Positions 826-36,560 of a stretch of 55,847 bases of DNA are shown here, piece after piece (the stretch's first letter is position 1; every line of letters starts with the position of its first letter). Both the position numbers and the translations under genes were made by a program. Source of the DNA: a virus; IMG/VR virus record IMGVR_UViG_3300038301_000366, positions 1 through 55,847 of that record, one strand, 5' to 3'. The notes below the pieces were generated by a model. That model was not told the DNA's origin, did no database searches, and saw nothing but the letters and a program-made list of their open reading frames with translations.

Positions 826-1251
826 ATGCCTATATTAAAGTTCCAATGTTCTTCTTGTGGTCTTTCCTCAAGAAAAAGAGTCGGCAAGCAAAAATCAGAA
901 ATAAAATGTGATTGCGGTATGCAAGCACAGGTTGTTCAGTGTGTTTCTGCTTCCGTTGGGTTTACCTCGAAAGTAGACCAAACCATGAAGGTTCAATCTT
1001 CAGGTGTAGATTCTTTTGACTTGGACTTTGATCGTGTCATCGGTGAAGACGCTCAACAGAAATGGGAGCAGATTTACCGTAGACGCAGAGATAAATGGGA
1101 CTTGATAGAGTCTCATAATGCTACAGGGAAAGACCTCATAAGAATGGATGATCAAACATATCAAGTCCTCCCTGAAATGGGAAACAATCTTCGCTCTAGC
1201 AGAGTCTCTGCTATGGATAATATTAAGTCTAGCTCTTCCACTAATCAATAG
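826..1251 (+). CDS. Small zinc-ribbon protein of the sheath operon
   Basis: A 141-residue protein with an N-terminal zinc ribbon: Cys8 and Cys11 (CSSC) pair with a later Cys-x-Cys (CDCG, near residues 28-31). The rest is polar and probably helical, with a Ser/Asn-rich end. A good ribosome site (AGGAGG) lies 8 bases before the ATG. The gene sits between the structural gene that ends at 783 and the sheath, with an 11-base gap to the latter, so all three are likely co-transcribed. The ribbon is a different version of the FmdB-like ribbons at 14990 and 16605. Role unknown; it may be a virion or assembly protein. Confidence 0.7.
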   Translation: MPILKFQCSSCGLSSRKRVGKQKSEIKCDCGMQAQVVQCVSASVGFTSKVDQTMKVQSSGVDSFDLDFDRVIGEDAQQKWEQIYRRRRDKWDLIESHNATGKDLIRMDDQTYQVLPEMGNNLRSSRVSAMDNIKSSSSTNQ

Positions 1252-1262
1252 GAGAAACAATT

Positions 1263-4200
1263 ATGGCTATTAGAGGCGGTTACGCACCACCAGGAGTTTA
1301 TACAGAGACAGTATTTGAGTCTCCTACTCCACAGAATAACTTTTCGGGGAGAATCCCCCTTCTGATCGGTTCAGGTACTGAGACTTTTGCACAAAACGGT
1401 TTAAGTTTAGTGCGAGGGTCTTCTTCGATCATAGATCAACAAATGGTAGAAGAAGACGCTACAGGTAGAGTTGTTCTTTCTCAGAATCCAAATAGCACTT
1501 ATAACTTAGGGGCTTTTGACGGAACTACTGCACAAGTAAGAACTCGTCAATTTCCTATCGTTACAGGTGATGGTACAGGGACGACAACTAAAACTGCTTC
1601 TTCTGTCTCGGCTACGATTAACGGAAGTGCTGTGGTTGTTCTTGCCGTTAATGGGAAAGATGGCTTAGTCACTCTTTCTCAAGCCCCTAAAGAGGGTGAT
1701 GATGTAAGATTGACTTACTTCTTTAACCGTACTGATGTCCTCGTAGACTCTGAAGATGTTTCAGATCAAGTATCTGATGACCTTTCAGAGCTTTACGGAA
1801 CAGCAGGGACTATGGAGGTTAAAGCCGCTTCTCGTAGCTTTATCATTACTGTTGACGGAACTGTGGGGATTATAGAAATCCCACTTAAACCCTCTAATGT
1901 TACGAGAGAAAACCACTTAAGTGTTATTGTCGGAAAGATTAACTCTTCAAACATTGGTACTCTTGTGGCAAGCACTTATGTTGACCACAAAGGCTCGACT
2001 AACCTCAAGTTGGTTGCTGACGGTTCTATTAAGATTGGTGCAGGTTCTTCAAATGAAGTTCTTGGTGTGTTCAACACTCAAAAAGGGTCAGAAAGAAACT
2101 CCGTTTTCTACTCCGATCAAGCTCCGATTGTTGATGGGACTAATGGCGGTAAAGCTACTTCAGAAGTATCTGACGTTACTGTTACTGTAGACTTAGTTCC
2201 TGTAACCCCTACTTCTTTAGATCCAACAACAGGTGCGATTACTCTATCAGAGCCTCCAAAAGTTGGTCAGAAAGTAGCTATCTCTTATTACTTCAACAGC
2301 TTTGTAGATAACTTTGATTATCTGCCTGCAAGAGATGTGGTTTCTGTTGATCGAGTTGCTATCGCCCCTGAAGATACTGTGGGTCCTGCGGGGCTTTTTA
2401 GTGAAGGTGAGAGTTGGGTTCTTAAAGATGACAAACTCTATTGGGGTACTTTTGCTTCTGCCTCTTCGGGTCTAGTTCAGAATGGAGATGTTTCTTTTGG
2501 TACTACCCAAATTACAACTTCTCTACGAGACGAAAGAGTATACCTCAGTGAGTGTTCTGCTTTTGTGGACAATACAGGTAAAATCTTACCTAATGTCTTT
2601 AAGCTAGCTCACCAACCCACTGACGGTACAGGCACAGGCACTTCTACTTACAACTCAACGAAGGTTATCGTTAGAGTCGGTTGGAATATCTCAGACGCTT
2701 TGGCGAATGACGTTGCTGAAGTAGTTCGAGTCAACCCTTCAAACTCTACGGTTACTCTGAGTCAGCCTGTTCCTTACGGTCAGAAAGTGTTTGCGACTTT
2801 CTACTACAATAACATCCAAGATCAATACTCGATTGCAAGTGGAGGTTATGATCTTACTGTTGCTTCAGTTGGTGGATCGAATGTTGGTACTTATACCGTA
2901 TCAAAGGCGAACCTACCTCTTTATGGAGCAACCTTTGAGGGTAAAGGCACTGACCTTTCTCTTACTACTCTGAACTTCCCATCGGGAGCAGAGACAAGAT
3001 CAGACGCTATTTTAGGTAGCGGTAAAGCTGTAGAAGAAGACATCACAGTTCAGATTGAGAACTTTGAAGCAACACCTGCTATGTTCTTCACACCTAACCC
3101 TGCTCCTTATGTGTTTATCCAAGGTGAATCTGACACTATTAAGATCACTGTTGATAATAACGCAGAGCAAAGTGTTATTTTGACTGATCCAACAGGTCTT
3201 ACAAAGGGTAGAGGATTGCTTACTTATCATGTAAGTGAACCACTTCCTTATACTGCTTCTTCAGATAATACTGACTTGGGTTCGATCAATGGAAACATCT
3301 TCTTAAAGATCGACAATGTAGATATTACAGTTGAGACAGGTGCTATCGCCACAGCGACTGCTTCTGAGATTGCTGATGCGATCAATACAGATGTAAATGG
3401 TGTTGGTGCTAAGTATTATGCGATGACTCCGATGAGTGCTTTGGACTTAACACAAGGTAAACACACTCATCTTACAATTAGATACAGAGGTATAAATGGA
3501 GCTGACGCTCTTAGTGAGAATGTTAAAACCATTACTATTGGTTCAATTGCTTATCCTTCAGCTTCTGATATTGCTTCAGCTCTTCAGACTCAAATTGATG
3601 ACGTTGCTAATTTCAATGGGGATATTGATATTAATGTTTCTTCTGAAGATGGGTTTCTTGTTTTTAGTCTTGATGGACTACTTGCAGGAGATGTTCAAGG
3701 ATACCTTGAGTTCCTTTCCATTGACAAAGGAAATAATGACGCCGCATTAGGTGATCTAAACTTTGGTTTGATTGCAGGTATCGACACTGATGTTGCTGAT
3801 GGATCTCAGACTAAGTTTGGTATTCTTCCTGTTGCGTTTGCTGTCTCTACAGATATTGATGGTGCAGGAAGCAATTCTGTTAAAGATCGTTTGATCTTCA
3901 GAAACAGAACTCGTATTGGGGCTGACTACTTCCCTCCCATTCAGTTGGGTCTTGAAGTTATTGGTGGCTCTATTTTGACTGAGTGTGGTCTTTCATCTAC
4001 TGAGGTTAAAGCTGTAAGAACTGCGGTTGTAGAAGCTCCAACTCTTCTTATAAGAGCAGGTTGGGGTGATCAGTCATCTACGACAGGTAGTCCTAAAGTA
4101 ACTTTCTACAATGGTGATAACACAAGCTTCGCTCAAAACAGCACTTTGAATCTTAACTTCTCAGGTGTTTCTAAGTCTGTAACCTTTACCTCTTCAGCAG

Positions 4201-6107
4201 GAGGTACGGGAGCTGACTTATTTAATGATGGTGCTAAAGCTACGGCAGGTACTGTTGTTAAACAATTGGGGGATGCTCTTGCAGGTGTTGCTACTGTAAG
4301 CATTGAAGGTTCTAATCTCAGGATTGTCTCTACAAGCAAAACTGAAGATGACTTCATTACTGTTGAAGAAGGTACAGCAAATGAATTACTTGGTTTGACT
4401 GAGGACTTCACCACAGTCTCTACTCTTGTAAATGCGGAAGCTCTTTCTTCTGCCTTCATGCAGAACGCACCTACTACTTTAACTAGCTTGTTGTTGAGTC
4501 TTCCGTTTACTCACAATGGAGCAGGTTCTTATTCTAACACTGCGATTTCTTTTGTTAAGAAAGACGCTACAGGTAAGAGCTATGTTGGTTTTGAGAGCTT
4601 GACTGTTGGTTTGAGTTCTTCTCTTACGTTTGGTAATGGAAATGCTGTTAGCACCCATACAACTCGTTTGGGTATTAAGAATGGTGACACCTCTGTGGGT
4701 GAAGCTCCTTATCAGGGCTTCTTTGTTACTTCTTCTAACTCAGCAGGTACAGGTTCATCAAACACTTCGACTCTGAATGACGGAACGGGTGTTGATGGTG
4801 TGGTTGGTCAAACTTACATTGACTCAGTTACAGGCTTTAGCTTCACCTTACTTCCTCGTGCGGGGGGTCAAGCTTATTCTACGGGATCAAACTCGACTCT
4901 TTCTTTCAAGGTGTCTAAGACTCTGACCACTAATGCAAACATTCCTGTTACTTCGATTGCAGGTGTTAGCCTTACAGTAGCGAACACAGTGGGTACTCAG
5001 ATTGGTGATACCGCTTTGGTTGAGACTTTCCATCATCTCGGTAACGAGCCTTCTTTGGGTGAGCCTTACTATGTAAATATCACTCGTAAGAAGAGTGCCT
5101 TTAATACGGGTATCTTCACTCGCCTTGCTGATGTAACAGCTACTTACGGACCTGTTAGTACAGATAACCCTCTTTCTCTTGGTGCTTACTTCGCTTTCTT
5201 AAATGGAGCGAATACGATTGCACTTAAGCAGATTTCTTTGAGTGACGGTCAAACTGAGCCTACAGTAGCTCAGATGATTCAAGCTTTGAAAGACGTAGAG
5301 GGTGAGATCAGCCCTGGACTTTCTCCCTCTGTTATCGTTCCTTTGATCCCTGCTAGTACAGAGCTTCTCGCTGATGTTTCTTTACACTGTGATTTGCAAT
5401 CTAGCTTAAGATTCAGATCAGAAAGAACAGCCATCTTGGGTGTACCCGCAGGGACTTCACCTGCACAAGTTTCTACATTGGCTAGAAATGTAAAGAACAC
5501 TCGTGTTCGTCTGATTTACCCTGACATTGTAAGTATTACTCTTACGAACAATGTGGGAGCTTCTGTCAATACTATCGTTGATAGTCGTTATCTTGCTGTC
5601 GCAATGGCTTGTGCCACTACTTCAGCTACGATTGATGAAGCGACACCTTGGACTAACAGAACGATTGTAGGGTTCAATGGCCTCCTAAGAACACTTGACG
5701 CTGTTGACGCTAACCAAACTGCTTCGGCAGGTGTTACGATCCTTCAGCAACAAGGTTCTGTTCTTAATGTGCGTCAAGGATTGACTACTGATGTTAGTTC
5801 TATTTTGACCAAGACTCCGACTGTGATTCAGATTGCAGACGCAGTTCATCTTCGAGCGAGAAATCTCTTGAATGGATACATTGGCGAGAAGTATCTCCCA
5901 AGTATTGTTGGTCAGATTGAAGGTCGTGTGAATCAGATGTTCAAGGATCTTGTGAAACAGCAGATTATTGACTCTTATACAGGTCTTTCAGTGTCTCGTG
6001 ATCCCGAAGATCCTACAGGGCTTCTTGTAGAGGTATTCTACAAGCCGATCTTCCCACTTCTTTACATTCAGTTTACCTTTAACTTAAGAAGTTCGATTGA
6101 CGCTTAG
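1263..6107 (+). CDS. Tail sheath protein, unusually long
   Basis: This encodes the contractile sheath subunit that surrounds the tail tube. The N terminus (GGYAPPGVYTET) is the classic sheath start. The last 130 residues form the conserved C-terminal domain: a long helix with ARNLLNGYIGEKYLPS, then a strand pair ending in FPLLYIQFTFNLRSS. At 1614 residues it is more than twice the size of most sheath proteins (about 400-700). The extra mass is Ser/Thr/Gly-rich beta material, including at least three related modules near residues 108-158, 300-350 and 459-522 that share a VTLS-(Q/E)-P-P-x-G-x-x-V-x-(I/F)-x-Y-(Y/F)-(F/Y)-N pattern. These are probably surface domains inserted in the sheath. Ribosome site AGGAG. 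Its stop overlaps the stop of the convergent thymidine kinase by 4 bases. Confidence 0.93.
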   Translation: MAIRGGYAPPGVYTETVFESPTPQNNFSGRIPLLIGSGTETFAQNGLSLVRGSSSIIDQQMVEEDATGRVVLSQNPNSTYNLGAFDGTTAQVRTRQFPIVTGDGTGTTTKTASSVSATINGSAVVVLAVNGKDGLVTLSQAPKEGDDVRLTYFFNRTDVLVDSEDVSDQVSDDLSELYGTAGTMEVKAASRSFIITVDGTVGIIEIPLKPSNVTRENHLSVIVGKINSSNIGTLVASTYVDHKGSTNLKLVADGSIKIGAGSSNEVLGVFNTQKGSERNSVFYSDQAPIVDGTNGGKATSEVSDVTVTVDLVPVTPTSLDPTTGAITLSEPPKVGQKVAISYYFNSFVDNFDYLPARDVVSVDRVAIAPEDTVGPAGLFSEGESWVLKDDKLYWGTFASASSGLVQNGDVSFGTTQITTSLRDERVYLSECSAFVDNTGKILPNVFKLAHQPTDGTGTGTSTYNSTKVIVRVGWNISDALANDVAEVVRVNPSNSTVTLSQPVPYGQKVFATFYYNNIQDQYSIASGGYDLTVASVGGSNVGTYTVSKANLPLYGATFEGKGTDLSLTTLNFPSGAETRSDAILGSGKAVEEDITVQIENFEATPAMFFTPNPAPYVFIQGESDTIKITVDNNAEQSVILTDPTGLTKGRGLLTYHVSEPLPYTASSDNTDLGSINGNIFLKIDNVDITVETGAIATATASEIADAINTDVNGVGAKYYAMTPMSALDLTQGKHTHLTIRYRGINGADALSENVKTITIGSIAYPSASDIASALQTQIDDVANFNGDIDINVSSEDGFLVFSLDGLLAGDVQGYLEFLSIDKGNNDAALGDLNFGLIAGIDTDVADGSQTKFGILPVAFAVSTDIDGAGSNSVKDRLIFRNRTRIGADYFPPIQLGLEVIGGSILTECGLSSTEVKAVRTAVVEAPTLLIRAGWGDQSSTTGSPKVTFYNGDNTSFAQNSTLNLNFSGVSKSVTFTSSAGGTGADLFNDGAKATAGTVVKQLGDALAGVATVSIEGSNLRIVSTSKTEDDFITVEEGTANELLGLTEDFTTVSTLVNAEALSSAFMQNAPTTLTSLLLSLPFTHNGAGSYSNTAISFVKKDATGKSYVGFESLTVGLSSSLTFGNGNAVSTHTTRLGIKNGDTSVGEAPYQGFFVTSSNSAGTGSSNTSTLNDGTGVDGVVGQTYIDSVTGFSFTLLPRAGGQAYSTGSNSTLSFKVSKTLTTNANIPVTSIAGVSLTVANTVGTQIGDTALVETFHHLGNEPSLGEPYYVNITRKKSAFNTGIFTRLADVTATYGPVSTDNPLSLGAYFAFLNGANTIALKQISLSDGQTEPTVAQMIQALKDVEGEISPGLSPSVIVPLIPASTELLADVSLHCDLQSSLRFRSERTAILGVPAGTSPAQVSTLARNVKNTRVRLIYPDIVSITLTNNVGASVNTIVDSRYLAVAMACATTSATIDEATPWTNRTIVGFNGLLRTLDAVDANQTASAGVTILQQQGSVLNVRQGLTTDVSSILTKTPTVIQIADAVHLRARNLLNGYIGEKYLPSIVGQIEGRVNQMFKDLVKQQIIDSYTGLSVSRDPEDPTGLLVEVFYKPIFPLLYIQFTFNLRSSIDA

Positions 6108-11158: not shown

Positions 11159-12412
11159 ATGGACATTGTAAGACTTATTAAGATCTCGTCTCAGTTCCCG
11201 AATACAAAACTCGCTAAGGCTACAGAGACTTATCTTCTTTCTTTGGTTAAGAAAGAGATTGAGCATAACTCAAGCTTAGAGTTCTTGAATCAGTTATCAG
11301 ATAGAGTAGCTTCCTCCCCCTCGAACCATTGGCAAAGAGGTCTTATGCTCTTAAAGAGGGCTTCTCAAGGCGAAGATGTTATTCATTTCTTAGAGCATTG
11401 GGAAGATCAGGGTTCTCGATCTTTGAACTTTGAAGGCAGTAAGAAAGAACTCATTCGTTTAGCTTATGAGAACCCTTCTCTTAGACCGATCATTGTAGGT
11501 GCGGAGTCAGCTCAGATAAGTCAGTCTGATCTGAACCAAGCAGGTAAACAAAAAGCTAAAAAGCAAGACCGAGCCCCTAAAGGAGAGGGGAGAGGTGCTG
11601 AGAGGAAGATGCAGAAAGCTGAAGGTAAGAAGAGTAAAAAACAAGAGCTTCAAATGTTGATGACTAATTACAAATCAAGCGAGAACGGTGCGGAAAGAAC
11701 TAAGATAACTAAGAGACTGCAAAGTCTTATTCGAGGTAAAAAAAGAACAAAACAGACCCCAAAGCTTATGAAAATAATGGTCAATTGGAACAAATACTCT
11801 AACGGTATTAAGAAAGTAAAGTCACCTAAAACAAAAGAAGAAGTGACTTGGGCTACTTTGTTTTCTGATGAGGAGACAAAAGAATTTGCAGAGGAGTTAA
11901 GAGAAGAAGAGTACATCAAACCACTCTTTCAACTTGCAAAAAGAATTGTCCAACAAGCGGGGGATGGTAGCGAGAAAGATGACTCCAAGAAGAAAGACGA
12001 GCCTAAGAAGGATGACAAGGGTGAGTCAGATACAAGTAAGTCCGATGGAGATAAAGGTGAGAGTAAAGGAGAGGATAAGGGTATCGTAGAAAGTCTTATG
12101 GAGAGTGAGGGTATCTCTAAAGAAGAAGCCCAAGACATGGCAGGTAACATTTTAGAGGGTGAAGGTGATGATGAAGATGATACTTCAGAAGCCCCTGATT
12201 CTTCAGAGTCAGCAACAGGTCAGTCTGTTTCTACAAGTGGAGGTCTTGGAGGATTAGGTGGGGAGTCAAGTGGGGGCGACAGTGGAGCTAAGGGCTATAC
12301 TAAAGTCAAAAAAGGACCGCACGACACAAAAAAGCAGAAAAAACAGCAATCTGACAGTCGAAAAAAGAACAGAAAGAAAGCAAACTCAAATGACTTAGAC
12401 ATTAGTTTTTAA
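11159..12412 (+). CDS. Large charged, mostly disordered protein carrying the KKLIR-AYxNPxLR module
   Basis: 417 residues. Residues 1-115 are helical and end in KKELIRLAYENPSLRPIIV (95-113), a module that recurs at the N terminus of the 2H phosphoesterase-like protein at 13476. From about residue 120 the protein is Lys/Glu/Asp/Ser rich with a Gly-rich patch (GGLGGLGGESSGG) and a Lys-rich tail, so most of it is likely unstructured. Such composition suits a scaffold-like or nucleic-acid-associated virion protein, but that is inference. It opens a plus-strand unit with a CTCTTTAT element upstream and a weak AGAGAGG ribosome site; the next gene starts 13 bases after its stop. Confidence 0.75.
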   Translation: MDIVRLIKISSQFPNTKLAKATETYLLSLVKKEIEHNSSLEFLNQLSDRVASSPSNHWQRGLMLLKRASQGEDVIHFLEHWEDQGSRSLNFEGSKKELIRLAYENPSLRPIIVGAESAQISQSDLNQAGKQKAKKQDRAPKGEGRGAERKMQKAEGKKSKKQELQMLMTNYKSSENGAERTKITKRLQSLIRGKKRTKQTPKLMKIMVNWNKYSNGIKKVKSPKTKEEVTWATLFSDEETKEFAEELREEEYIKPLFQLAKRIVQQAGDGSEKDDSKKKDEPKKDDKGESDTSKSDGDKGESKGEDKGIVESLMESEGISKEEAQDMAGNILEGEGDDEDDTSEAPDSSESATGQSVSTSGGLGGLGGESSGGDSGAKGYTKVKKGPHDTKKQKKQQSDSRKKNRKKANSNDLDISF

Positions 12413-12425
12413 GAAAGGAAAACAA

Positions 12426-13409
12426 ATGATTAACTTCTTACAGTCCCCAAGTCAGTTCAACACTGTAAATATAAAGATGGCATCTCTTTCAGAAAGACAG
12501 CTAGTGATTATCGCCTGTTTTCAATATAGACAAGCGAAGACTCTACGCCTCGCCTCCAACTGGGTAACAAATCTAATCAGTTCGGGTGTCGCTAAAGTTA
12601 AAGGCATGGCGAAGTATGTTAAAAATGCGTTCTTAAAAATCTTAAAAGTGTTCTTTGTTCAAACCCCTGTCGTCAACCTATTCACTGAGTTTTTTCAATC
12701 CCTTGCTTATGATCGTCTACTGTCAAAGCTCTATTTCGCATGGAAACTAGGTGCTAAACATAGGGAGAGCGGTAAAGACCTTCTGAGTAGAGTGGGGTTC
12801 ATCAAGTATTATGGATCAAGGGATGGACTGTTCTTCTATGATGATTATATGAGTGGGTATGATGATACTTCTGACCTTAAAGATTTAAGAATCAAGGCGG
12901 TAAATATCGCTAAGGAAGATTTAGGTTTGAGGACAGTCACAGAGATTATAAAAGTGGCGTGGGAAACCCTAAACCCGTTCAAGTTTTTTGAGTCTTTCTT
13001 TACCTCATTAAAACTGATTGGTAAGAAAAAGGTTTTCTTACCTGGCTCAAGGACAGAAGCTAGTTTTATAGACATCTTTCTGTATCAGTTAAACTATGCA
13101 ATCCCTATGATGATCGCTATTTCATTACCTCAGATATTTACGATTAAAGTGTTAGGTGGTCTAGCACTAGGTTCACTTATGGGATACAACCCTAAAGATA
13201 TTATCAAAGGAAATAGCTCCTCCATCAAAAAACTCAAAAGGGGCATTTCTTCTCTTTTCTTTAAACAGCAAAAAAGATTTGATGTGGAAGAAATCTTTGA
13301 GAAGATTCCTGAAAAAGATGTTTTCTTCCATGACGCTCAAGGTGATCTTAAATCTGTTCAGAGTGCTTCAGAAGAAGAAATAGAGGAACTAGTTAAAAGT
13401 ATAAACTAG
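12426..13409 (+). CDS. Membrane-associated protein of unknown function
   Basis: 327 residues, basic, helical. A hydrophobic stretch around residues 215-255 (YAIPMMIAISLPQI, then IKVLGGLALGSLMG) looks like one or two membrane segments, and the 60-85 region is amphipathic and Phe-rich. The C terminus is acidic. No known domain seen. KMAS lies at residues 17-20, a short motif also seen in several neighbours. Similar build (helical soluble part, membrane hairpin, short tail) appears at 22136, 28689 and 29375. Ribosome site AAGGA; follows the charged protein by 13 bases, so co-transcribed. Confidence 0.75.
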   Translation: MINFLQSPSQFNTVNIKMASLSERQLVIIACFQYRQAKTLRLASNWVTNLISSGVAKVKGMAKYVKNAFLKILKVFFVQTPVVNLFTEFFQSLAYDRLLSKLYFAWKLGAKHRESGKDLLSRVGFIKYYGSRDGLFFYDDYMSGYDDTSDLKDLRIKAVNIAKEDLGLRTVTEIIKVAWETLNPFKFFESFFTSLKLIGKKKVFLPGSRTEASFIDIFLYQLNYAIPMMIAISLPQIFTIKVLGGLALGSLMGYNPKDIIKGNSSSIKKLKRGISSLFFKQQKRFDVEEIFEKIPEKDVFFHDAQGDLKSVQSASEEEIEELVKSIN

Positions 13410-13475
13410 TAACGTATATACCTCTTTTATCTTTTTGCCTTTGTAACTAAATAAAACAACAATAAGGAGACTCCC

Positions 13476-14042
13476 ATGTCCGACACAAGAAAGAAACTAA
13501 TAAGAATCGCTTACGATAACCCACATTTGCGATCTAAAATCCTACCGACTTTGAACAAAATCTCAGCTCAAAAAAAGAAGAAGACCAAGGTCAACTTCAT
13601 TGAAGCCATTCTTGAGAACCCAACTGACTTAACTTCTTGGTTGGAAAGACAAGACGATGCTCCCTCACTCAAAGGTTGGGATATTAAGAGTCATCACATG
13701 ACGATGGAATTTTTAAAGAAGGGCAAAGCAACAGACCTAGAACCTTATAAACAGTTCTTGGGTAACACCTATACCGTAGACATTGTAGGATATGCTTTTG
13801 ATGACAAGTGTGTTGCAGTCTTAATAGACACAAACTTGCCTGTCGATAACAAGTTCCCTCATATTACGGTAGCTGTGAATGGTGTGTCTCCTGTATACAG
13901 CAACGACCTCTTGAAAGAGAAGAGTGCTTCAGGTGAACTTATCCAAGCAAAAGGTAAGCTTAAAGTGAAGGTTGGGTACTTTGACTTTAAGACTCACCGT
14001 TATGATCTTCCTCATGAGTTTTTTGAAACTGACGAGGATTGA
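13476..14042 (+). CDS. 2H phosphoesterase-like protein with an N-terminal KKLIR module
   Basis: 188 residues. The N terminus (KKLIRIAYDNPHLRSKILP, residues 6-24) matches the module in the protein at 11159, then a Lys-rich linker. The rest carries two HxT motifs spaced as in 2H phosphoesterases: HMTM (His74, Thr76) and HITV (His129, Thr131), within GWDIKSHHMTMEFL and KFPHITVAVNGV. This superfamily includes 2'-5' RNA ligases, cyclic phosphodiesterases of RNA repair and the phage anti-CBASS nuclease Acb1, which cuts cyclic nucleotides. The substrate here cannot be told from sequence. AAGGAG lies seven bases before the ATG. Its 3' end overlaps the minus-strand gene 14012-14359 by 31 bases. Confidence 0.7.
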   Translation: MSDTRKKLIRIAYDNPHLRSKILPTLNKISAQKKKKTKVNFIEAILENPTDLTSWLERQDDAPSLKGWDIKSHHMTMEFLKKGKATDLEPYKQFLGNTYTVDIVGYAFDDKCVAVLIDTNLPVDNKFPHITVAVNGVSPVYSNDLLKEKSASGELIQAKGKLKVKVGYFDFKTHRYDLPHEFFETDED

Positions 14043-17775: not shown

Positions 17776-18486
17776 ATGGCACAAGTTTATTTAATCGCTC
17801 GTAGAGCCGAAGTTCAGAATGGGTCAGTTATGGTTACTGACTTGTTCCCCAATGAAAGCCAAAGAAATACTGCAATCGACCCCGTTGGTGCAGGCCCGAT
17901 CTATGTAAGACAGATTGATCTAGGTGTGAAAGGAAAGTATAGAGCTATCCTAAGCACCACTGCAAACGTGATCTCGTTTGCTCGTGAATCAAGAGGTCTT
18001 GTTGCTTTCCTTATTAAGAATGTTGAAGCAGGCGGAGCTAACGGAGACGCTCTTACAGTTGCAGAAGCAACAATCGGAGCTAACCTTATCCTCGCAGAAG
18101 TTCGTGATGGAAATGCTCTCCCCGCAATTGCTATTAACGGCATTCTTACTAACATCAATGTTGGTGGTGCAGGTACTGACATTGAAGCAAACAGCACTGT
18201 TTCTGAGCTTATTCGTGTTCTTTCAGGAGAGACTTACATCGTCAAAGCAGGAAGTACGGTCGAAGACGCAAATGGAAACTTTGTCCCTGATGTTAATGCT
18301 TCAGCAGGCTTTCAGAATGATGTGAGACACCCTGTTGATGGGGACTCTTCTTGGGTTCTTTCAGCGCAAGGCGGTGTTCTTTCAGGTCTTAAATCTAATC
18401 AAAATGTAAAGGTAGGTTTTGCAGGTGTTTTGACCACAGACCCTATCGTAACCGTTTATAATGCAGACGGTTCATTGTTTGTTTAA
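17776..18486 (+). CDS. Virion structural protein, first of three tandem paralogues
   Basis: 236 residues. Early signature (VTDLFPNESQRNTAIDP, residues about 20-36) followed by GPIYVRQ, then an N-x-STxSEL(I/L)-(R/E)-(V/I)-LSG region near residues 140-153 and a closing SxxxNADGSLF. All three neighbours share these, so the family arose by tandem duplication. No signal or membrane segment; Gly/Ala-rich and probably beta-rich. Its ribosome site is AAGGAG, normally spaced. I believe this family occurs in other large phages, but I cannot name its exact role (decoration, tail or baseplate). Confidence 0.75.
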   Translation: MAQVYLIARRAEVQNGSVMVTDLFPNESQRNTAIDPVGAGPIYVRQIDLGVKGKYRAILSTTANVISFARESRGLVAFLIKNVEAGGANGDALTVAEATIGANLILAEVRDGNALPAIAINGILTNINVGGAGTDIEANSTVSELIRVLSGETYIVKAGSTVEDANGNFVPDVNASAGFQNDVRHPVDGDSSWVLSAQGGVLSGLKSNQNVKVGFAGVLTTDPIVTVYNADGSLFV

Positions 18487-18508: not shown

Positions 18509-19225
18509 ATGCCTTTTATTTGTATGCCCACAGTACCTAATAAAACAGATGAGGTTTTGGTTCAGATCACTGATCTATTTCCTCACAAAACTCAATCAAA
18601 CGCTACCCTAAATCCTAACTTTCAAGGACCTCGTTATCAACGAGCGATCTACAATGGGGCTTTAGTTAAGACTGTCGTTCTTGAAGCTGATTTCACAGTG
18701 AAAACTACGGTTTCGGGTCTTTCTGCATACTTGATTTCTACGATAGAAGTTACAAGCGATGCAAATGATATTGGTCTAACTCCTGCCCAAGCAGACGCTA
18801 TCGCAACTGCTATCATTGGTCAGGTCGGTTATGCTTCTTCTCTAACTGTCGCTGTTATCAATGCTCTTATCCAAGCTACTACAGTTGATGGGGGTGATGC
18901 TGATGGTATTGGGAAGGGTAACAGCACTGCGACTGTTTTAGAGATTCTTCAGATTCTTTCAGGCAGTCGTGTTTATACCTTACCTGCGACTACAGATCTA
19001 GGGAATGAGGGTGCAAACGATGTGTTTATTCCTTTAGACGCTAACATTCAAGCTTCTTTCTTTAGCACCCCTGTTGGAACTAAAGATGTTTCTAGTGCTG
19101 ACGCAAGCTTCTTCACCTCTGCTCGAAGCGGTCAAATCAATCTAGCTCAGTCTAAAAAGACTACTAGTGGTGTCGCTTCCCCTGTTCTCGTTGCTTACAA
19201 CGATGACGGTTCATTAATCCAATAA
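18509..19225 (+). CDS. Virion structural protein, second of three tandem paralogues
   Basis: 238 residues. ITDLFPHKTQSNATLNPN replaces the first paralogue's motif and is followed by GPRYQRA; then SGLSAYLISTIEV, TPAQADAIATAI, NSTATVLEILQILSG and a C-terminal YNDDGSLIQ. It lies 22 bases after the first paralogue with TGGAG upstream. Same family and unknown exact role as its neighbours. Confidence 0.75.
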   Translation: MPFICMPTVPNKTDEVLVQITDLFPHKTQSNATLNPNFQGPRYQRAIYNGALVKTVVLEADFTVKTTVSGLSAYLISTIEVTSDANDIGLTPAQADAIATAIIGQVGYASSLTVAVINALIQATTVDGGDADGIGKGNSTATVLEILQILSGSRVYTLPATTDLGNEGANDVFIPLDANIQASFFSTPVGTKDVSSADASFFTSARSGQINLAQSKKTTSGVASPVLVAYNDDGSLIQ

Positions 19226-19240: not shown

Positions 19241-19918
19241 ATGCCTAATCCAGTTATTTGCTTAAGGGATGAAACTATCCCTAATAATAGTTTTCAGATT
19301 ACTGATCTCTTTCCAAACCGTTCACAGAGAAACCCTGTGGTTGACCCTGCGGCACAAGGACCTCGTTATCTCAGACAACCTGAGAATAATATTCCTGTCG
19401 TAGCTAACAATGCTGTTTCTAAGGCTGTGAGTGGTCTTACTGCTTACCTGTTGACCACAATAGATGTTCAAGCAGGTGGGGCTAATCCTACTCCTGCCCA
19501 AGCTAGCGACATGGCGGGTACGTTATTAAAAAGAATGAGAAATGGGAATGAACTCACTCTCGCCAAAATAAATGATGCGATCCAAGCAGCGGGTAATGGT
19601 CAAGACTTTAATAATACAGGTATCGTTGGTACAGGTGATTCCACTGCTACTGTTCAGAATATCTTGAGCATTCTTGGTGGTGCGAACTTTACTGTTTCAG
19701 CAGGTACGAGTGTCGCTGATAGCTATCTTACAGAGGCACAACAGACTTCAGCTTTCAACAGCAATGTCTATCAAGCGATTGACCCAAGTGATTCAAGCTT
19801 TTATCTTTCTGTAGCGAGAGGTCAGCTTTCTGTGGCTAAATCATCTAGCACAGACGCTAAAGGTAATGTTCTTTACCCTCAGTGTGTGTTATATAAAGCA
19901 GACGGTACTTTACTTTAA
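19241..19918 (+). CDS. Virion structural protein, third of three tandem paralogues
   Basis: 225 residues. ITDLFPNRSQRNPVVDP, GPRYLRQ, SGLTAYLLTTIDV, STATVQNILSILGG and the closing YKADGTLL are all present in the family order. AGGAG precedes the ATG and only 15 bases separate it from paralogue two. The three copies differ most in the middle, as expected if the shared segments form a common fold and the middle is exposed. Confidence 0.75.
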   Translation: MPNPVICLRDETIPNNSFQITDLFPNRSQRNPVVDPAAQGPRYLRQPENNIPVVANNAVSKAVSGLTAYLLTTIDVQAGGANPTPAQASDMAGTLLKRMRNGNELTLAKINDAIQAAGNGQDFNNTGIVGTGDSTATVQNILSILGGANFTVSAGTSVADSYLTEAQQTSAFNSNVYQAIDPSDSSFYLSVARGQLSVAKSSSTDAKGNVLYPQCVLYKADGTLL

Positions 19919-20445: not shown

Positions 20446-21285
20446 TCATATCTTAACCATCCCTCTTTTAGTAGCTTCCTCATCTGAGAAAGGGAGCTTC
20501 GTGTATTTATTATATTTAGCGTCAGTGAGGTCAGCTTCAGTGAGGTCAGCTTTTGTGAGGTTAGCGTCAGTGAGGTTAGCGGATCTGAGGTCAGCGAATC
20601 TGAGGTTAGCTAATGTGAGGTTGGCGAATCTGAGGTCAGCGAATCTGAGGTCAGCTTCAGTGAGGTTAGCTTCATAGAGGTCAGCGTATGTGAGGTCAGC
20701 TTTTATGAGGTTAGCTTTTATGAGGACAGCGAATCTGAGGTTAGCGGATCTGAGGTAAGCGTTTCTGAGGTGAGCGTCAGTGAGGTTGGCTAATCTGAGG
20801 TTAGCGTTTCTGAGGTTAGCTCCTGTGGGGGTAGCGAATCTGAGGTCAGCGTTTGAGAGGTCAGCGTTTGCGAGGTCAGCGTCAGTGAGGTTAGCGTCAG
20901 TGAGGTCAGCGTCAGTGAGGTCAGCGTCAGTGAGGTCAGCTTCAGTGAGGTCAGCGGATCTGAGGTTAGCTTCTCTGAGGTTAGCTTCTCTGAGGTCAGC
21001 TAATGTGAGGTTGGCGGATCTGAGTCTTGCTTCATAGAGGTTGGCTTCAGTGAGGTCAGCTTTTATGAGGTTAGCGTTTCTGAGGTTAGCTTTTATGAGG
21101 TTAGCGTTTCTGAGGTTAGCTTCAGAGAGGTCAGCGTCAGTGAGGTTGGTTTCGCTAAGATCAGTGTTTCTTAAATCCCACCCTGAGAAGTCCTGACCTG
21201 AGAGATCTTGACCTTCAAGACCCTTAATCATTTCTTCCTCTAGTTGGGCTACTCTTTCCATTAAGTTAGCTATCTTGTTTCTCAT
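20446..21285 (-). CDS. Pentapeptide-repeat protein
   Basis: 279 residues; from about residue 25 to 260 it is nearly unbroken pentapeptides of the A-(D/N)-L-x-x type (ADLTDADLTDADLTDANLTD and similar), roughly 45 of them. These fold into a right-handed square beta helix of about 12 coils. Known members mimic B-form DNA and protect DNA gyrase (MfpA, Qnr), but many have no known role. The N terminus (MERVAQLEEEM) is a short helix and the C terminus a short cap. AGGGAG precedes the start. It is an isolated minus-strand gene, so perhaps separately controlled. Confidence 0.92.
   Translation of the reverse strand: MRNKIANLMERVAQLEEEMIKGLEGQDLSGQDFSGWDLRNTDLSETNLTDADLSEANLRNANLIKANLRNANLIKADLTEANLYEARLRSANLTLADLREANLREANLRSADLTEADLTDADLTDADLTDANLTDADLANADLSNADLRFATPTGANLRNANLRLANLTDAHLRNAYLRSANLRFAVLIKANLIKADLTYADLYEANLTEADLRFADLRFANLTLANLRFADLRSANLTDANLTKADLTEADLTDAKYNKYTKLPFSDEEATKRGMVKI
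20516..21190 (-). repeat. Degenerate 15-bp tandem repeats coding for pentapeptides
   Basis: Many units in plus-strand register like GTGAGGTCAGCGTCA and CTGAGGTTAGCGTTT run head to tail across the pentapeptide gene. They keep the minus-strand frame, and every repeat also leaves an open plus-strand frame, so a 60+ codon shadow ORF there should not be called. The near-identical units make this a likely site of unequal recombination. Confidence 0.9.
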
Positions 21286-23149: not shown

Positions 23150-24697
23150 ATGTATAAGCGTTCTTGTGTTATTGCTCTCTCTGACATAAACGGAAAGAAG
23201 TTTATGTTTAAAAACAGAGATAGAAATTATACACCCCAACTAAAAATCTATCACACCATGAGAAATGGTGTTGAAATGGTGTACTTCAGAGATGAACACA
23301 CGGGTTGGGTTGAGGGTATAAATGAATATGGGATTGGAATCTCTAACTCTGCTCTTATGGTTATTTGGGATGAGAAAGAGGGTAAGGGTGGTAAAAAGAA
23401 GAAAGATAACATTACATTAGGTGCTTTAGGCTCTAGGGATGCAAGTAGAATCCTTAAGACTTTAGAGTGCCGTACTTTTGAAGACGCTTTAGAGACAGTA
23501 ATACACTATGATGGAGGTGTGCGTGGGCATACCTTTCTTTCCGATGGAGTTGAGGCTAGGTCAGTAGAGCATACAGCTAAACATAAAGCTTTTATTTCAG
23601 ACTTGAGTGCAGGTAAACATCATGTCCGATCTAATCATGGTGATAACTACCCCGATGCAGGATACACAATAGGTGAGAACAAAGAGAGTTCGCATACTAG
23701 GTTAAAGAAAGTGTTTGACACTCTTTCTGAAGTAGAATCACCTGAAGACTTGATTAAACAGCTTTATGCACAAAGGTTTGAAGACCCTACTTCTCCATTT
23801 AATGTCGTTCGCAGGACTGATAATATGTATACAAGCAGTCAGCTCATCTACGATTTTGAGGAGAAGAAAATCTCTCTCTATCTAGTTCCTGAAGACTGTG
23901 ATTATTTAGGGTATGTAAAAGACTTTAGTCATCAAGGTGTTTGTTCTTTTGATGTGTATAGATTAGGATACTTTAATAGTGATGGGTCTTTTAGAATTAA
24001 AAAGATTAAAGCAAACCCTGTTCGAGTAGCGAATCGTGTTAAAATGGCTTCGAGACAAAAAGCAGATAAGAAGGCTATAGCCCCTATCATTAAAAAAAAG
24101 ATTCTGAATATCTTTGATAAAGAGGAACGTAGCAGTGCTATGTATAAGCACTTTGAAGAACAGTTTGGTGTGGGTAACAAAGACCCTTTGATAAACAGAG
24201 ATGAGTCTCTCTTTATAGAGTGGGTTCAGAATCTTGAAGAAGATATCCCCCCTAAGTTTTGGAGATCATTATATTTAATTCCTGAAGATGGTTTATCTTG
24301 GGAAGCTGAAGATGTTTCTTTAGTTGGTGATTTAGAATGGGCGATAGACAAACGAGGGACTTATATCTGTGGTAAAGCACTTGTTTCGGGTTTGTGGGAG
24401 ATGTCGGGAGTGGGGAGAGAAGCGTATGTTGCCTACAGTGGAGAGTTCCCCATATATTCTCATCAGGAATGGTATTTGCGTGGGCTTGACCCTGAGATTG
24501 ATAAGCTTTGGGAAAAGTTCAAAAACTTTTTAAAATTGAAAACAGCACCTAATGGGGAATCTAAAGGTGGGGGTAAAATCTCTAGGGGTTGGGAAGGTAA
24601 ATATCACTTTAGTAAAGTGGTCAGCTTTTGCTTCCCTGTTTTTGAAGATAAACTGTTAGATATACAATATAAATTTCATATCGGAATTTTACCTTAA
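23150..24697 (+). CDS. Ntn-hydrolase (C45 / amide hydrolase-like) with a C-terminal extension
   Basis: 515 residues. The first 250 match N-terminal-nucleophile amide hydrolases: Cys6 (MYKRSCVIAL) as the likely nucleophile, KNRD near 21-24, GINEYGIGISNSAL near 57-69, and HHVRSNHGDNYP further on, the Asn-His pair typical of C45 acyltransferases. The first five residues would be removed to free Cys6. The substrate is unknown; members act on penicillins, bile salts, acyl homoserine lactones and other amides. A Lys-rich linker with KMAS near residues 298-301 joins a 200-residue C-terminal domain of unknown type (GLSWEAEDVSLVGDLEWAID). Unusual cargo for a phage structural region. Confidence 0.65.
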   Translation: MYKRSCVIALSDINGKKFMFKNRDRNYTPQLKIYHTMRNGVEMVYFRDEHTGWVEGINEYGIGISNSALMVIWDEKEGKGGKKKKDNITLGALGSRDASRILKTLECRTFEDALETVIHYDGGVRGHTFLSDGVEARSVEHTAKHKAFISDLSAGKHHVRSNHGDNYPDAGYTIGENKESSHTRLKKVFDTLSEVESPEDLIKQLYAQRFEDPTSPFNVVRRTDNMYTSSQLIYDFEEKKISLYLVPEDCDYLGYVKDFSHQGVCSFDVYRLGYFNSDGSFRIKKIKANPVRVANRVKMASRQKADKKAIAPIIKKKILNIFDKEERSSAMYKHFEEQFGVGNKDPLINRDESLFIEWVQNLEEDIPPKFWRSLYLIPEDGLSWEAEDVSLVGDLEWAIDKRGTYICGKALVSGLWEMSGVGREAYVAYSGEFPIYSHQEWYLRGLDPEIDKLWEKFKNFLKLKTAPNGESKGGGKISRGWEGKYHFSKVVSFCFPVFEDKLLDIQYKFHIGILP

Positions 24698-28211: not shown

Positions 28212-28273
28212 ACTGCTCTGATAGTTTTTTTATGTTCTGTTATTTGCACACTGTAACAAGGAAGGCTAAAGCC

Positions 28274-28669
28274 ATGAAAAGATCAGCATCAGAAATCATT
28301 AATGAACTTGAGCAGAGAATCGCTAGCCTTGAGAAGCAATCTTCCTCTCCTGTTTTTGAACTTGAGGGGCACATCTACGAAGGTTCAAATGGTGATTATT
28401 ATGTCCGTAAGCGAGGCGACCTTAAGGAGATCACTAGTTACATCGAAAGTTGGCCTAATAGAGTCTTAATTGCAGAAGATGAAGGTTATGATTGGAAGAT
28501 AAAGTATGACTATAAGCACTTCTTTGGTTTTACTGCATCTAATGGGCTAACAGAGCTTGAACTGTTTTGTGTAGAGGGAGAATGTAGGACTGAAGTACGT
28601 CAGCTTGAGTTACTTCTTCGCAAAGTACTTTTAATTCCTCGTAGTGTTCGCACTGACTTCAACAAGTAA
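28274..28669 (+). CDS. ASEIIN-LE module protein 1
   Basis: 131 residues from the ATG at 28274, which has AAGGAAGG eight bases upstream; an in-frame ATG at 28232 would add 14 residues and has no site. The first 20 residues (MKRSASEIINELEQRIASLE) are a helical module shared with three other proteins here. The remainder is mixed: an acidic strand-rich middle with YDWKIKYDYKHFFGF and a helical C terminus with CVEGECRTEVRQLELLLRK. No known function. It lies next after the homing gene, and two more module proteins follow directly. Confidence 0.65.
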   Translation: MKRSASEIINELEQRIASLEKQSSSPVFELEGHIYEGSNGDYYVRKRGDLKEITSYIESWPNRVLIAEDEGYDWKIKYDYKHFFGFTASNGLTELELFCVEGECRTEVRQLELLLRKVLLIPRSVRTDFNK

Positions 28670-28688
28670 TCTGAAGAAAGAAAAAGCA

Positions 28689-29372
28689 ATGAGAAGAAGA
28701 GCCTCAGAAGTAATTCATGATTTAGAAATAAGAATCGCCCATCTTGAAAGAGAAGCTTTTTTGGGTGATTCCCTAGATTCAGTTAAAAGAAATCTCGTAA
28801 AGTTATTTGATAAGATACCTTACATGAGAGAGATCATTGCTTTACTCAAAAAGGTTTCTAATACTAGAAGCATGAAGGGGGCTCGCACTCTTGCAAAGCA
28901 ACTAGTGTATATTTACGATTATGATCCTGAGTATCAAATCTTAGAAGATCATATCATGAAAACGGAGAGGACTTTGAAAGGTCGTATTGGGTTGGCTTTA
29001 GATATGCTAGTTTCGACTGCCGAACTTAAACTAGCTAGAGATCAGTCCCCTTCTGAAGTTGCTTTGAGAAAGTTTACTCAGGGAGTTCCTGCGATATTAG
29101 TTTTGGCGGCGATACTTCAACAAATTTATTTTGTAGTCTCACCGATGCTGAGTGGGGTGCTTTTATATGCGAGTGCTACTGTTATTTTCTCTATCATTAC
29201 TTATGTTTTAGCGGTGGGTTATAATAAGTTATCTGACATTTTAGAGCCAATCTTAGAGGGTAGAGGTTCACAATCTAAGCTCAGAACGAGTAGTGGTTCA
29301 ATGTCTAGGGTTGCTTACGCTCTTGAAGAGGCTATTCAATATCACAACCTAGAAGCAGAACGGTTAAAGTAA
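28689..29372 (+). CDS. ASEVIH-LE module protein 2, with membrane segments
   Basis: 227 residues from the ATG at 28689 (an upstream in-frame extension would include the previous gene's end). The module reads MRRRASEVIHDLEIRIAHLE. After a charged helical region, residues about 135-180 are strongly hydrophobic (VPAILVLAAILQQIYFVV and a second stretch, ATVIFSIITYVLAVG), probably a membrane hairpin. The C terminus is helical and ends in EEAIQYHNLEAERLK. A weak GAAG signal precedes the start. It overlaps no gene but is two bases from the next. Confidence 0.65.
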   Translation: MRRRASEVIHDLEIRIAHLEREAFLGDSLDSVKRNLVKLFDKIPYMREIIALLKKVSNTRSMKGARTLAKQLVYIYDYDPEYQILEDHIMKTERTLKGRIGLALDMLVSTAELKLARDQSPSEVALRKFTQGVPAILVLAAILQQIYFVVSPMLSGVLLYASATVIFSIITYVLAVGYNKLSDILEPILEGRGSQSKLRTSSGSMSRVAYALEEAIQYHNLEAERLK

Positions 29373-29374
29373 CC

Positions 29375-30487
29375 ATGAGAAGAACTGCATCAGAAATCAT
29401 TAATGACCTTGAAATTAGAGTAGCCGAGCTAGAGAAAGAAGCGGGCTTTATAGATGATATTTCAAGCACTTTTAATGGGCTTGTTAATATCCCTAAGAAC
29501 ATTGTTAAGAAGATCATCAATGGGTTTGCGGATATCTACAATACAATACAGCTTGAGTTTGAGGGAAATGAATCCAAGATTAACGACTCTTTAGGGGCGT
29601 TGTTGGGTTCAAGGGTTTTTAGAGCGATGGCGGGAGTGACAACTACAAGAGCGGGCTTACCTAAGATCGTTTCTTTCAATGCTTCAGTGCCTTTAAACTC
29701 AATATTCACAGGGGGAAAAGCTGAAGATAAAAAGATTCAGTTAAAAGACCTTGTTAAAAAGTATGTGGGTGAAAACCAAACGAGAATGAAAAGTGCTTAT
29801 CTTTCTTGGTATTCGGATTTCAAACACATCCTTAACCCTAAAAAGATTAGTGAAGGTGAGAGTTTTAAAATCTTCATGGATGCTCTTAAAAGGTATTCTA
29901 AGGTACTTTATCGGTTTTTCACATCTCTCATAGGGGTAGTGGGGATAATGGCTTTAAAAGGTACGGTAGTGTCCACCATCATAGTGATGATAGCTCGTTT
30001 GATCGTCCAAGCTTCAGGTTTAAGAACCACTCTAGCAGATATGACTGAGTATACAGCTTTGAGTCAAAATACAAGGGTTCGTATTGTACAAGAAGTCCCT
30101 TCGACCACACAGCTACCCACGATAGAAGAAGCCCAAGACCTTGCTAAAAAAATGGAAGTTGCAATGTCAAAAGGTGATCTTACATTAGACGCTATCCCTG
30201 CTTCAGATAATAACTTTCTTCAAATCGAAACAACAACGATAGAAACGCCAATGTCTCAATATCAACCCATAAACTTGGATGCAGATCAGGTTAAGGATTA
30301 TCTAAAACAAAACATAGGTAGTTTTGCACCACTCATCCTAACAGGGTTTTTAGCTCTTTTAGAGAAAGCGATGTATCGTTGGGTTGTCAATACTGAAGAA
30401 TATGATGAGATGGTAGAGGGTAAGACAGCGAGTCAATATCCTGCCATCACTTATCTAACGTATAAGTTAGAGACAATAGCTTTATAG
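29375..30487 (+). CDS. ASEIIN-LE module protein 3, with membrane segments
   Basis: 370 residues. The module reads MRRTASEIINDLEIRVAELE, nearly the same as that of the protein at 35859. A helical region and a mid-protein hydrophobic patch (LIGVVGIMALKGTVVSTIIV, about 185-205) are followed by a second hydrophobic stretch (NIGSFAPLILTGFLALLE, near 315-333). Otherwise no known domain. The start is two bases after the previous stop with no strong site, so it is probably translated by coupling. Two membrane segments far apart recall proteins that insert into a host membrane during ejection; this is inference. Confidence 0.65.
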   Translation: MRRTASEIINDLEIRVAELEKEAGFIDDISSTFNGLVNIPKNIVKKIINGFADIYNTIQLEFEGNESKINDSLGALLGSRVFRAMAGVTTTRAGLPKIVSFNASVPLNSIFTGGKAEDKKIQLKDLVKKYVGENQTRMKSAYLSWYSDFKHILNPKKISEGESFKIFMDALKRYSKVLYRFFTSLIGVVGIMALKGTVVSTIIVMIARLIVQASGLRTTLADMTEYTALSQNTRVRIVQEVPSTTQLPTIEEAQDLAKKMEVAMSKGDLTLDAIPASDNNFLQIETTTIETPMSQYQPINLDADQVKDYLKQNIGSFAPLILTGFLALLEKAMYRWVVNTEEYDEMVEGKTASQYPAITYLTYKLETIAL

Positions 30488-35858: not shown

Positions 35859-36560
35859 ATGAGAAGAACAGCTTCAGAAATTTTAAATGGTCTTGAGATG
35901 AGAGTTGCTCGTCTTGAGCGTACCGCCAATACTCGCAGAGACCCTCGCAAAGTAGGACCTCGCACTCTTGTTGATCAAAACGAGGATGCACAGGATATCC
36001 TTGACCTTGCACAAGGCGCAGGCTTCCGAGGAGCTAAGATTCAGTACCAAGGTGACAATCCTGTTGTTGTTCTTGAGCGCAATCACTACATCTTCCTTAC
36101 TGATAAAGGATATGAGATTGAGAACCCACAGGGTGGCTCAACATTCACTTTTAAGTTTGGTGATGTTAAACACCACATTCAGAGTGAAGGTGGTTCTTTC
36201 GGTGGTTCTGAGATTGGCATGGAGAGTATGGAGCTTACTCCTACTTTTGAGGATGTACACAATCTCCTAACTGCTGACGGTGGTTACATGGGCGAGCGTT
36301 GGCAACGAGCATCTAATGATCGCTTCATCGGTGGCGATTATCTTATGAATGTTAAACTTACTCGCATGGGAATCAAGTTCTCCCTTACAGGACCCGACCT
36401 TAAACGTGGTGAGTCTATTTCTGAGGTTCGTGGTATGGTTAAGGGCGATGATCGTATGGAGCAACTCGAAGCTCTTTCTCAACGTCTTGATGCTATCGCA
36501 ATGGCAGCAGGCAAGCGCAAATCTAAAAGCCGTATGAGAGCTTTGAAGGCTTTAGGTTAA
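35859..36560 (+). CDS. ASEILN-LE module protein 4
   Basis: 233 residues. The module (MRRTASEILNGLEMRVARLE) is almost the same as in the protein at 29375, 6.5 kb away. The remainder has no known domain: a strand-rich middle (DNPVVVLERNHYIFLTDKGY) and a helical C terminus with a basic KRKSKSRMRALKALG end. Arg codons include seven CGC in 233 codons, rare in neighbours, so it may have another origin or be highly expressed. The last base is three bases from the stop of the convergent gene. AGGAG lies seven bases upstream of the ATG. Confidence 0.68.
   Translation: MRRTASEILNGLEMRVARLERTANTRRDPRKVGPRTLVDQNEDAQDILDLAQGAGFRGAKIQYQGDNPVVVLERNHYIFLTDKGYEIENPQGGSTFTFKFGDVKHHIQSEGGSFGGSEIGMESMELTPTFEDVHNLLTADGGYMGERWQRASNDRFIGGDYLMNVKLTRMGIKFSLTGPDLKRGESISEVRGMVKGDDRMEQLEALSQRLDAIAMAAGKRKSKSRMRALKALG

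Follow-up and report, generated by a model that had tools for sequence, protein, structure and literature searches.

A phage 2H phosphoesterase of the tRNA-ligase CPD/CNPase branch, a likely RNA end-healing enzyme with a recurrent N-terminal module

Introduction

Phages are known to mend tRNAs cleaved by the defences of their hosts, and the general view is that the enzymes for this task are synthesised after infection. Genes for 2H phosphoesterases are present in one third of medium and jumbo phages (PMC9503650). Reviews place the 2H proteins of jumbo phages chiefly in RNA repair (PMC7824862; PMC9503650), so this assignment was already known. 2H proteins fused to MuF or portal proteins are thought to be packaged and to act against signalling (PMC9503650), and the 2H domains of injected, polyvalent proteins are reported as a group that never associates with RNA ligases (PMC5512222). 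In CNPase, the HxTxxF and HxT motifs comprise H230/T232/F235 and H309/T311, and replacement of F235 leaves almost no activity (PMC4643303). Capsid-targeting sequences of phage T4, about 10 N-terminal residues in length, direct foreign proteins into the head (PMC9026906).

Here we analyse a 2H gene in a metagenomic contig, part of a viral genome, that is 55,847 bases long and was studied over its whole length (the window). An earlier note, made from this sequence alone, had proposed an anti-signalling enzyme similar to phage Acb1, with RNA repair as the main alternative.

Results

The open reading frame at 13476-14042 (plus strand, as are all features of this gene) encodes 188 amino acids that form an N-terminal module, a linker and a 2H phosphoesterase domain of the tRNA-ligase CPD/CNPase branch. 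The coordinates and the ATG start are those of the earlier note; a Shine-Dalgarno-like AAGGAG, a good ribosome-binding site, is found in the sequence at 13464-13469, 6 bases 5' of the ATG. A 275-kb sister virus carries a full-length copy of the protein with 68% identity, and the gene occupies the same place in both viruses. Over 183 codons, the two copies show 46, 28 and 104 differences at codon positions 1, 2 and 3, respectively, and thus differ mostly at the third position. The open reading frame is a real gene. Since it is known from a metagenomic contig alone, an inactive or decaying captured gene might be considered. The purifying pattern of substitution, the shared location and the invariance of the catalytic residues described below argue against decay, which we regard as extremely improbable and dropped on the substitution pattern against the sister.

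Two HxT motifs, H74-M-T76 and H129-I-T131 with 55 residues between them, had been reported for this protein and are present as described. By itself, such a pair is weak evidence because two or more HxT/S motifs occur in 16% of composition-preserving shuffles. In an alignment of 14 relatives, the invariant positions were exactly H73, H74, T76, N125, P128, H129, T131, S142 and N143; both His/Thr pairs, the conserved motif of the 2H superfamily, are thus free of variation among the 14 sequences. On the basis of conservation, the first catalytic motif is H73-H74-M-T76-x-x-F79 (13692-13712), an HxTxxF that corresponds to CNPase H230/T232/F235 and in which F79 matches F235 by spacing. The second catalytic motif is N125-x-x-P128-H129-I-T131 (13848-13868), a PHxT that corresponds to CNPase H309/T311, with the invariant S142-N143 (13899-13904) 3' of it.

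The sole Pfam family matched was PF08302 (tRNA_lig_CPD, the phosphodiesterase domain, CPD, of fungal tRNA ligase), with an E of 4.3e-9 and a score of 36.7 bits against a cut-off of 23; the matched stretch comprises residues 92-154 only. All of the 14 aligned members matched this family at E<=1. A relative with 42% over 83 residues is found in LR756511, a 595-kb uncultured phage. Alignment-based scans of viral contigs gave 19 loci in the main scan and two further ones later (L152, L153), and a scan of viral contigs with the single protein gave no relatives. The conserved patterns were also run twice against 84,980 prokaryote genomes; zero relatives were found, and therefore cellular operon context could not be used. 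A plasmid collection also contained zero relatives. Among PDB sequences, neither phmmer nor a profile search reached CNPase and Trl1, and weak MYB matches were put down to chance. In PHROGs, matches were solely to unnamed families without assigned function.

An AlphaFold model was calculated from the 14 sequences (pLDDT 86.9, pTM 0.73). It shows N-terminal helices at residues 3-14 and 16-30 and a 2H domain that starts at about residue 36. In a Foldseek search of the PDB, the best 45 matches were CNPase catalytic domains without exception (45/45). With VIA-align, residues 36-171 (13581-13988) superpose on CNPase over 136 residues at 2.5 Å with a Z of 13.3, and the fungal tRNA-ligase kinase-CPD (Trl1-type, 6u05) follows with a Z of 11.0. 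No 2H family besides these two exceeded 6.8, the approximate value for bacterial and plant CPDases; Acb1 (7t26) reached 6.5 (3.9 Å, 110 residues) and a Burkholderia phage phosphodiesterase 6.3. CNPase, tRNA-ligase CPD, CPDase, LigT-like and Acb1-type 2H proteins make up the best 50 structural matches listed (Z 6-13). Among the viral models of BFVD, the top rows include a Marseillevirus RNA ligase and giant-virus proteins, and Acb1 of phage RisingSun stands at rank 29 (E 0.014). The earlier note had suggested comparison of a predicted structure and named a model without a paired-His site as evidence against a 2H enzyme. This objection fails because the model has the 2H fold and matches CNPase and the Trl1 CPD. 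By profile, conservation and fold, the protein is a 2H phosphoesterase, as had been supposed, and the Pfam match and the predicted fold, with CNPase and the Trl1 CPD as its nearest neighbours, place it in the tRNA-ligase CPD/CNPase branch.

In other phages, the same 2H domain forms the C-terminus of fusion proteins, of which there are three kinds. It is joined to a CCA-type nucleotidyltransferase (PolyA_pol/CCA) in L042-L046, to an AAA_33 kinase in L041, L048 and L050, and to a HAD_SAK_1 ('Swiss Army Knife') RNA-repair phosphatase in L005-L007, where the fusion gene lies between an upstream gene of the CCA/poly(A)-polymerase type and a downstream NUDIX gene. The kinase part has T4 polynucleotide kinase as its best match (profile E 0.006). 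A model of the kinase fusion resembles T4 polynucleotide kinase with a Z of 10.9, which is supportive at most, since this model is of low confidence (pLDDT 57.9). The L041, L048 and L050 contigs also encode T4 Rnl1-type ligases, at a distance of a few kb on the downstream side of the kinase fusion. An association with polynucleotide kinase and RNA ligase is seen in these relatives; it was not seen in the window, and the sister virus has only a separate P-loop kinase. LR756511 contains several RNA ligases and kinases, HAD_SAK_1, a CCA-type enzyme and RlaP.

In the window, the protein stands alone and carries no fused repair domain. Besides its kinase, the 275-kb sister virus encodes a HAD_SAK_1 protein (G001 109683-110354) and two tRNA-Arg genes. 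T4 Rnl1, RNA_ligase and RtcB had no match in the window or in the 149-kb and 275-kb sister records, and the window and the 275-kb sister likewise gave no match to a CCA enzyme or RlaP; all of these records are possibly incomplete. KptA was absent from 13 of 13 records tested. The next enzyme to act on a 2'-phosphate, should one arise, would therefore likely be a phosphatase of the HAD_SAK kind.

These observations bear on the Acb1-like role that the earlier note had put first. Such a virion-delivered enzyme would degrade cyclic oligonucleotide signals (CBASS, type III CRISPR or similar) early in infection. Membership of the same superfamily, the paired His/Thr residues, and the matches to 7t26 and to RisingSun Acb1 are compatible with it, as is a sister virus in which no ligase was detected, and such action has been proposed for 2H domains of virion-delivered polyvalent proteins (PMC5512222; PMC9503650). 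However, CNPase and the Trl1 CPD are much nearer in both fold and sequence, so that Acb1 is the closest relation by neither. Its fusion partners are PNK-like kinase, CCA-type and HAD_SAK enzymes, and relatives lie near ligases, an association that is absent from the signal-degrading 2H group (PMC5512222). We consider an Acb1-like role unlikely, and the gene has been moved off the list of anti-CBASS candidates. Healing of RNA 2',3'-cyclic phosphates, the former alternative, is much better supported because the CNPase/Trl1 fold is far closer and relatives are fused to or near RNA-repair enzymes.

In another reading, the enzyme would belong to nucleotide or NAD metabolism and, in place of RNA ends, would scavenge ADP-ribose 1'',2''-cyclic phosphate or small 2',3'-cyclic nucleotides. 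CNPase and plant CPDase accept small substrates of this kind (PDB titles). NADAR genes are close to the kinase-2H fusions of L041 and L048, and L041 has a NUDIX gene as well. On the other hand, KptA is the usual source of ADP-ribose cyclic phosphate, and with KptA missing from all 13 records a route coupled to it was dropped; moreover, the fusions join the domain to enzymes of RNA ends. Scavenging thus seems quite unlikely. It is likely that this phage protein serves in RNA end healing, as a 2',3'-cyclic phosphodiesterase of the CPD/CNPase type found in fungal tRNA ligase, with cyclic RNA ends as the presumed substrate; the fold by itself does not determine the substrate.

The N-terminal module comprises residues 3-30 (13482-13565), corresponds to the two predicted helices and has the sequence LIRIAYDNPHLRSKILPTL. 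It is found again on further proteins of related giant phages. Within the window, a second copy, KKELIRLAYENPSLRPIIVG, is located internally at 11441-11500 (plus strand) in a 417-aa open reading frame (11159-12412). The module (LIRIAYDNPHLRSKILP) is N-terminal on three sister-virus proteins and, as TLRSKLIRLAHENPALRPQLLPLL, on six proteins in the 400 kb of LR745208 that were read. One of the sister-virus proteins, of 524 aa (G001 174527-176101, minus strand), has three copies of the LIRxAYENP module, two of them close to its N-terminus and the third close to its C-terminus. Matches in MT836493 and a Vibrio phage were set aside with an E of 4 or more. Elsewhere, CPD proteins begin with other prefixes, for example MMNFAQWVENE, MKKLLIEWRKFLKEE and MKNLIRKILKEE (genomes W01, G006 and G007), which are common to other genes of the respective genome. 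A run of short genes in L040 (895-4685), with the CPD among them, has two N-terminal prefixes, MKKLLTEWRKFL and MKITKSQLRQIIKEE, and resembles a series of cargo genes that each bear a tag.

To quantify such recurrence, the first 25 residues of each gene were scored against those of non-paralogous genes of the same genome, with start codons called simply. The CPD prefix ranked 11/232 in the sister, 10/170 in G009, 5/92 in G006, 6/103 in G007 and 10/476 in LR756511; no recurrence signal was seen in G008 (285/393) and G005 (19/47). The CPD thus bears a recurring N-terminal prefix of its own genome in five of the seven genomes of sizeable length. For the seven genomes, the combined p is 0.0025, and p is 0.03 after leaving out the two genomes in which the prefix had been seen beforehand. 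Control segments showed no pattern (combined p 0.11 for residues 31-55 and 0.87 for residues 56-80). Within the 55-kb window alone, the test was negative (rank 33/55) because too few module-bearing genes are present there, and on five small contigs it was weak and mixed. A tendency as for the CPD was observed for CCA-type genes (12/170, 16/393, 156/476) and HAD_SAK genes (31/232, 27/476). RNA ligases and stand-alone kinases showed no enrichment, all ranking at 32% or worse. The contrast between healing genes and sealing plus kinase genes gives a p of 0.001 but is a lead only, since the comparison was unplanned and the starts were called simply. Judged from these sequences, the module is real and recurrent on unrelated proteins of related giant phages. 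An N-terminal address on unrelated proteins of one phage, as in the T4-type internal proteins, is seen in the sister, in LR745208 and in the CPD ranks.

A second N-terminal module, M(R/K)R(T/S)ASEI(I/L)xxLExR(I/V)AxLE, is shared by at least four otherwise differing proteins of the window (28232-28669, 28644-29372, 29375-30487 and 35859-36560) and about ten of the 275-kb sister; it is probably another address tag.

Some CPD genes of other phages lie beside head genes. The CCA-CPD gene of G007 adjoins an S77 prohead protease gene and is 3.8 kb from a T4-type portal gene, in L005 and L007 a T4-type terminase gene is divergent from the CCA and HAD-CPD genes, and the CPD of L039 precedes a gpA terminase by about 2 kb. 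In L007, an intein-like segment that carries a LAGLIDADG domain splits the large terminase (1235-4372, minus strand). An S77 prohead protease was detected in G006, G007, G008 and W01 and was not detected in the window, the sister, G005, G009 and LR745208, the records of which are possibly partial. Prohead protease types besides S77 exist.

A gene that lies 7 kb upstream of the CPD gene in the window is tail-sheath-like, by a weak Pfam match that does not reach the cut-off. The gene directly upstream (12426-13409) encodes a 327-aa protein, and at this position the sister (L004 6671-7931) holds genes for an iron/manganese superoxide dismutase and for a protein resembling FMN reductase; from its variable content between conserved flanks, we read this site as a cargo spot. 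Further downstream are three tandem paralogues of about 230 aa (17776-18486, 18509-19225 and 19241-19918; ITDLFPN/HxSQxN...YLxR), probably virion proteins, whose order is kept in the sister. A pentapeptide-repeat protein is encoded at 20446-21285 on the minus strand (Pfam E 1e-66), and a 515-aa acyl-transferase-like protein (AAT, PF03417) at 23150-24697 within the phage structural region.

The idea of delivery with the virion, which had been drawn from the N-terminal module, gains from the recurrence of the module, the prefix enrichment across phages and the proximity to head genes; packaging itself stays conjectural. The module could instead address another place (for instance a scaffold, a host complex or a phage compartment inside the cell) or be a mobile helix pair, with the enzyme made in the cell. 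This would fit a module that spans about 28 residues in two helices and lacks the short T4-like pattern, as well as the internal copy in the window, the three copies in the 524-aa protein and a sister virus in which S77 was not detected. Against it stand the short CPD prefixes common to other genes, the presence of S77 in all of W01, G006 and G007, and the CPD genes that adjoin head genes. We give such a non-packaging role an even chance. It concerns delivery only and is therefore compatible with an RNA-healing activity.

Discussion

A mechanism for RNA healing can be proposed by analogy to CNPase. Metal-independent ribonucleases, e.g. host tRNA-cleaving defence enzymes or toxins, would leave RNA with a 2',3'-cyclic phosphate. 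H129 would activate a water molecule that attacks the cyclic phosphate, and H74 would protonate the leaving 3'-O, presumably giving an RNA end with a 2'-phosphate and a 3'-OH. Repair might then be completed by a 5' kinase, a ligase and a phosphatase, the last possibly the HAD_SAK_1 protein known from the sister virus. The N-terminal module may be a phage address tag that perhaps packages the enzyme into the head, so that it would enter with the DNA.

On a broader scale, we tentatively suggest that several unrelated giant-phage lineages might pack and inject an RNA-healing kit (2H CPD, HAD_SAK and CCA-type enzymes) via lineage-specific N-terminal tags, so that repair precedes phage expression and the ligase is made later. 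This is a possibility that we rate as rather doubtful. If true, tRNAs cut by host defence would be mended before phage genes are expressed. The tagged CPD, its head-gene neighbours and the kinase, CCA and HAD fusions make 'repair on arrival' a testable idea. The combination of repair partners with packaging-like prefixes was not found described in the literature searched.

Among known systems, the catalytic domain of vertebrate CNPase (e.g. 9etl, 2ydd) is the closest solved fold, with HxTxxF and HxT in common. Identity is 15%, and the window protein is about 70 residues shorter and lacks the PNK-like N-terminal domain. The fungal Trl1 CPD (PF08302; 6u05) shares the 2H fold, the HxT pair and a family match above the curated cut-off. 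Like the KIN-CPD of Trl1, phage relatives fuse the CPD to a kinase, whereas the window protein is a stand-alone minimal domain of about 135 residues without ligase and kinase parts and with an N-terminal phage module. Acb1 (7t26), an anti-CBASS nuclease, is likewise a small phage protein with the 2H fold and paired His/Thr, but is distant (Z 6.5, 3.9 Å, 110 residues) and without a sequence match. The T4 capsid-targeting sequences are likewise short N-terminal addresses on unrelated proteins of one phage, and in CPD phages with T4-like heads the prefixes are comparable to them. The module in the window is longer and of other sequence, and packaging by means of it is putative. Finally, the RNA-repair 2H proteins of jumbo phages (PMC7824862) belong to the same superfamily and have the same proposed role together with ATP-grasp ligases, kinases and HAD phosphatases; compared to these, the branch described here is CNPase/Trl1-like, forms CCA-type and PNK-like kinase fusions and carries recurring N-terminal tags.
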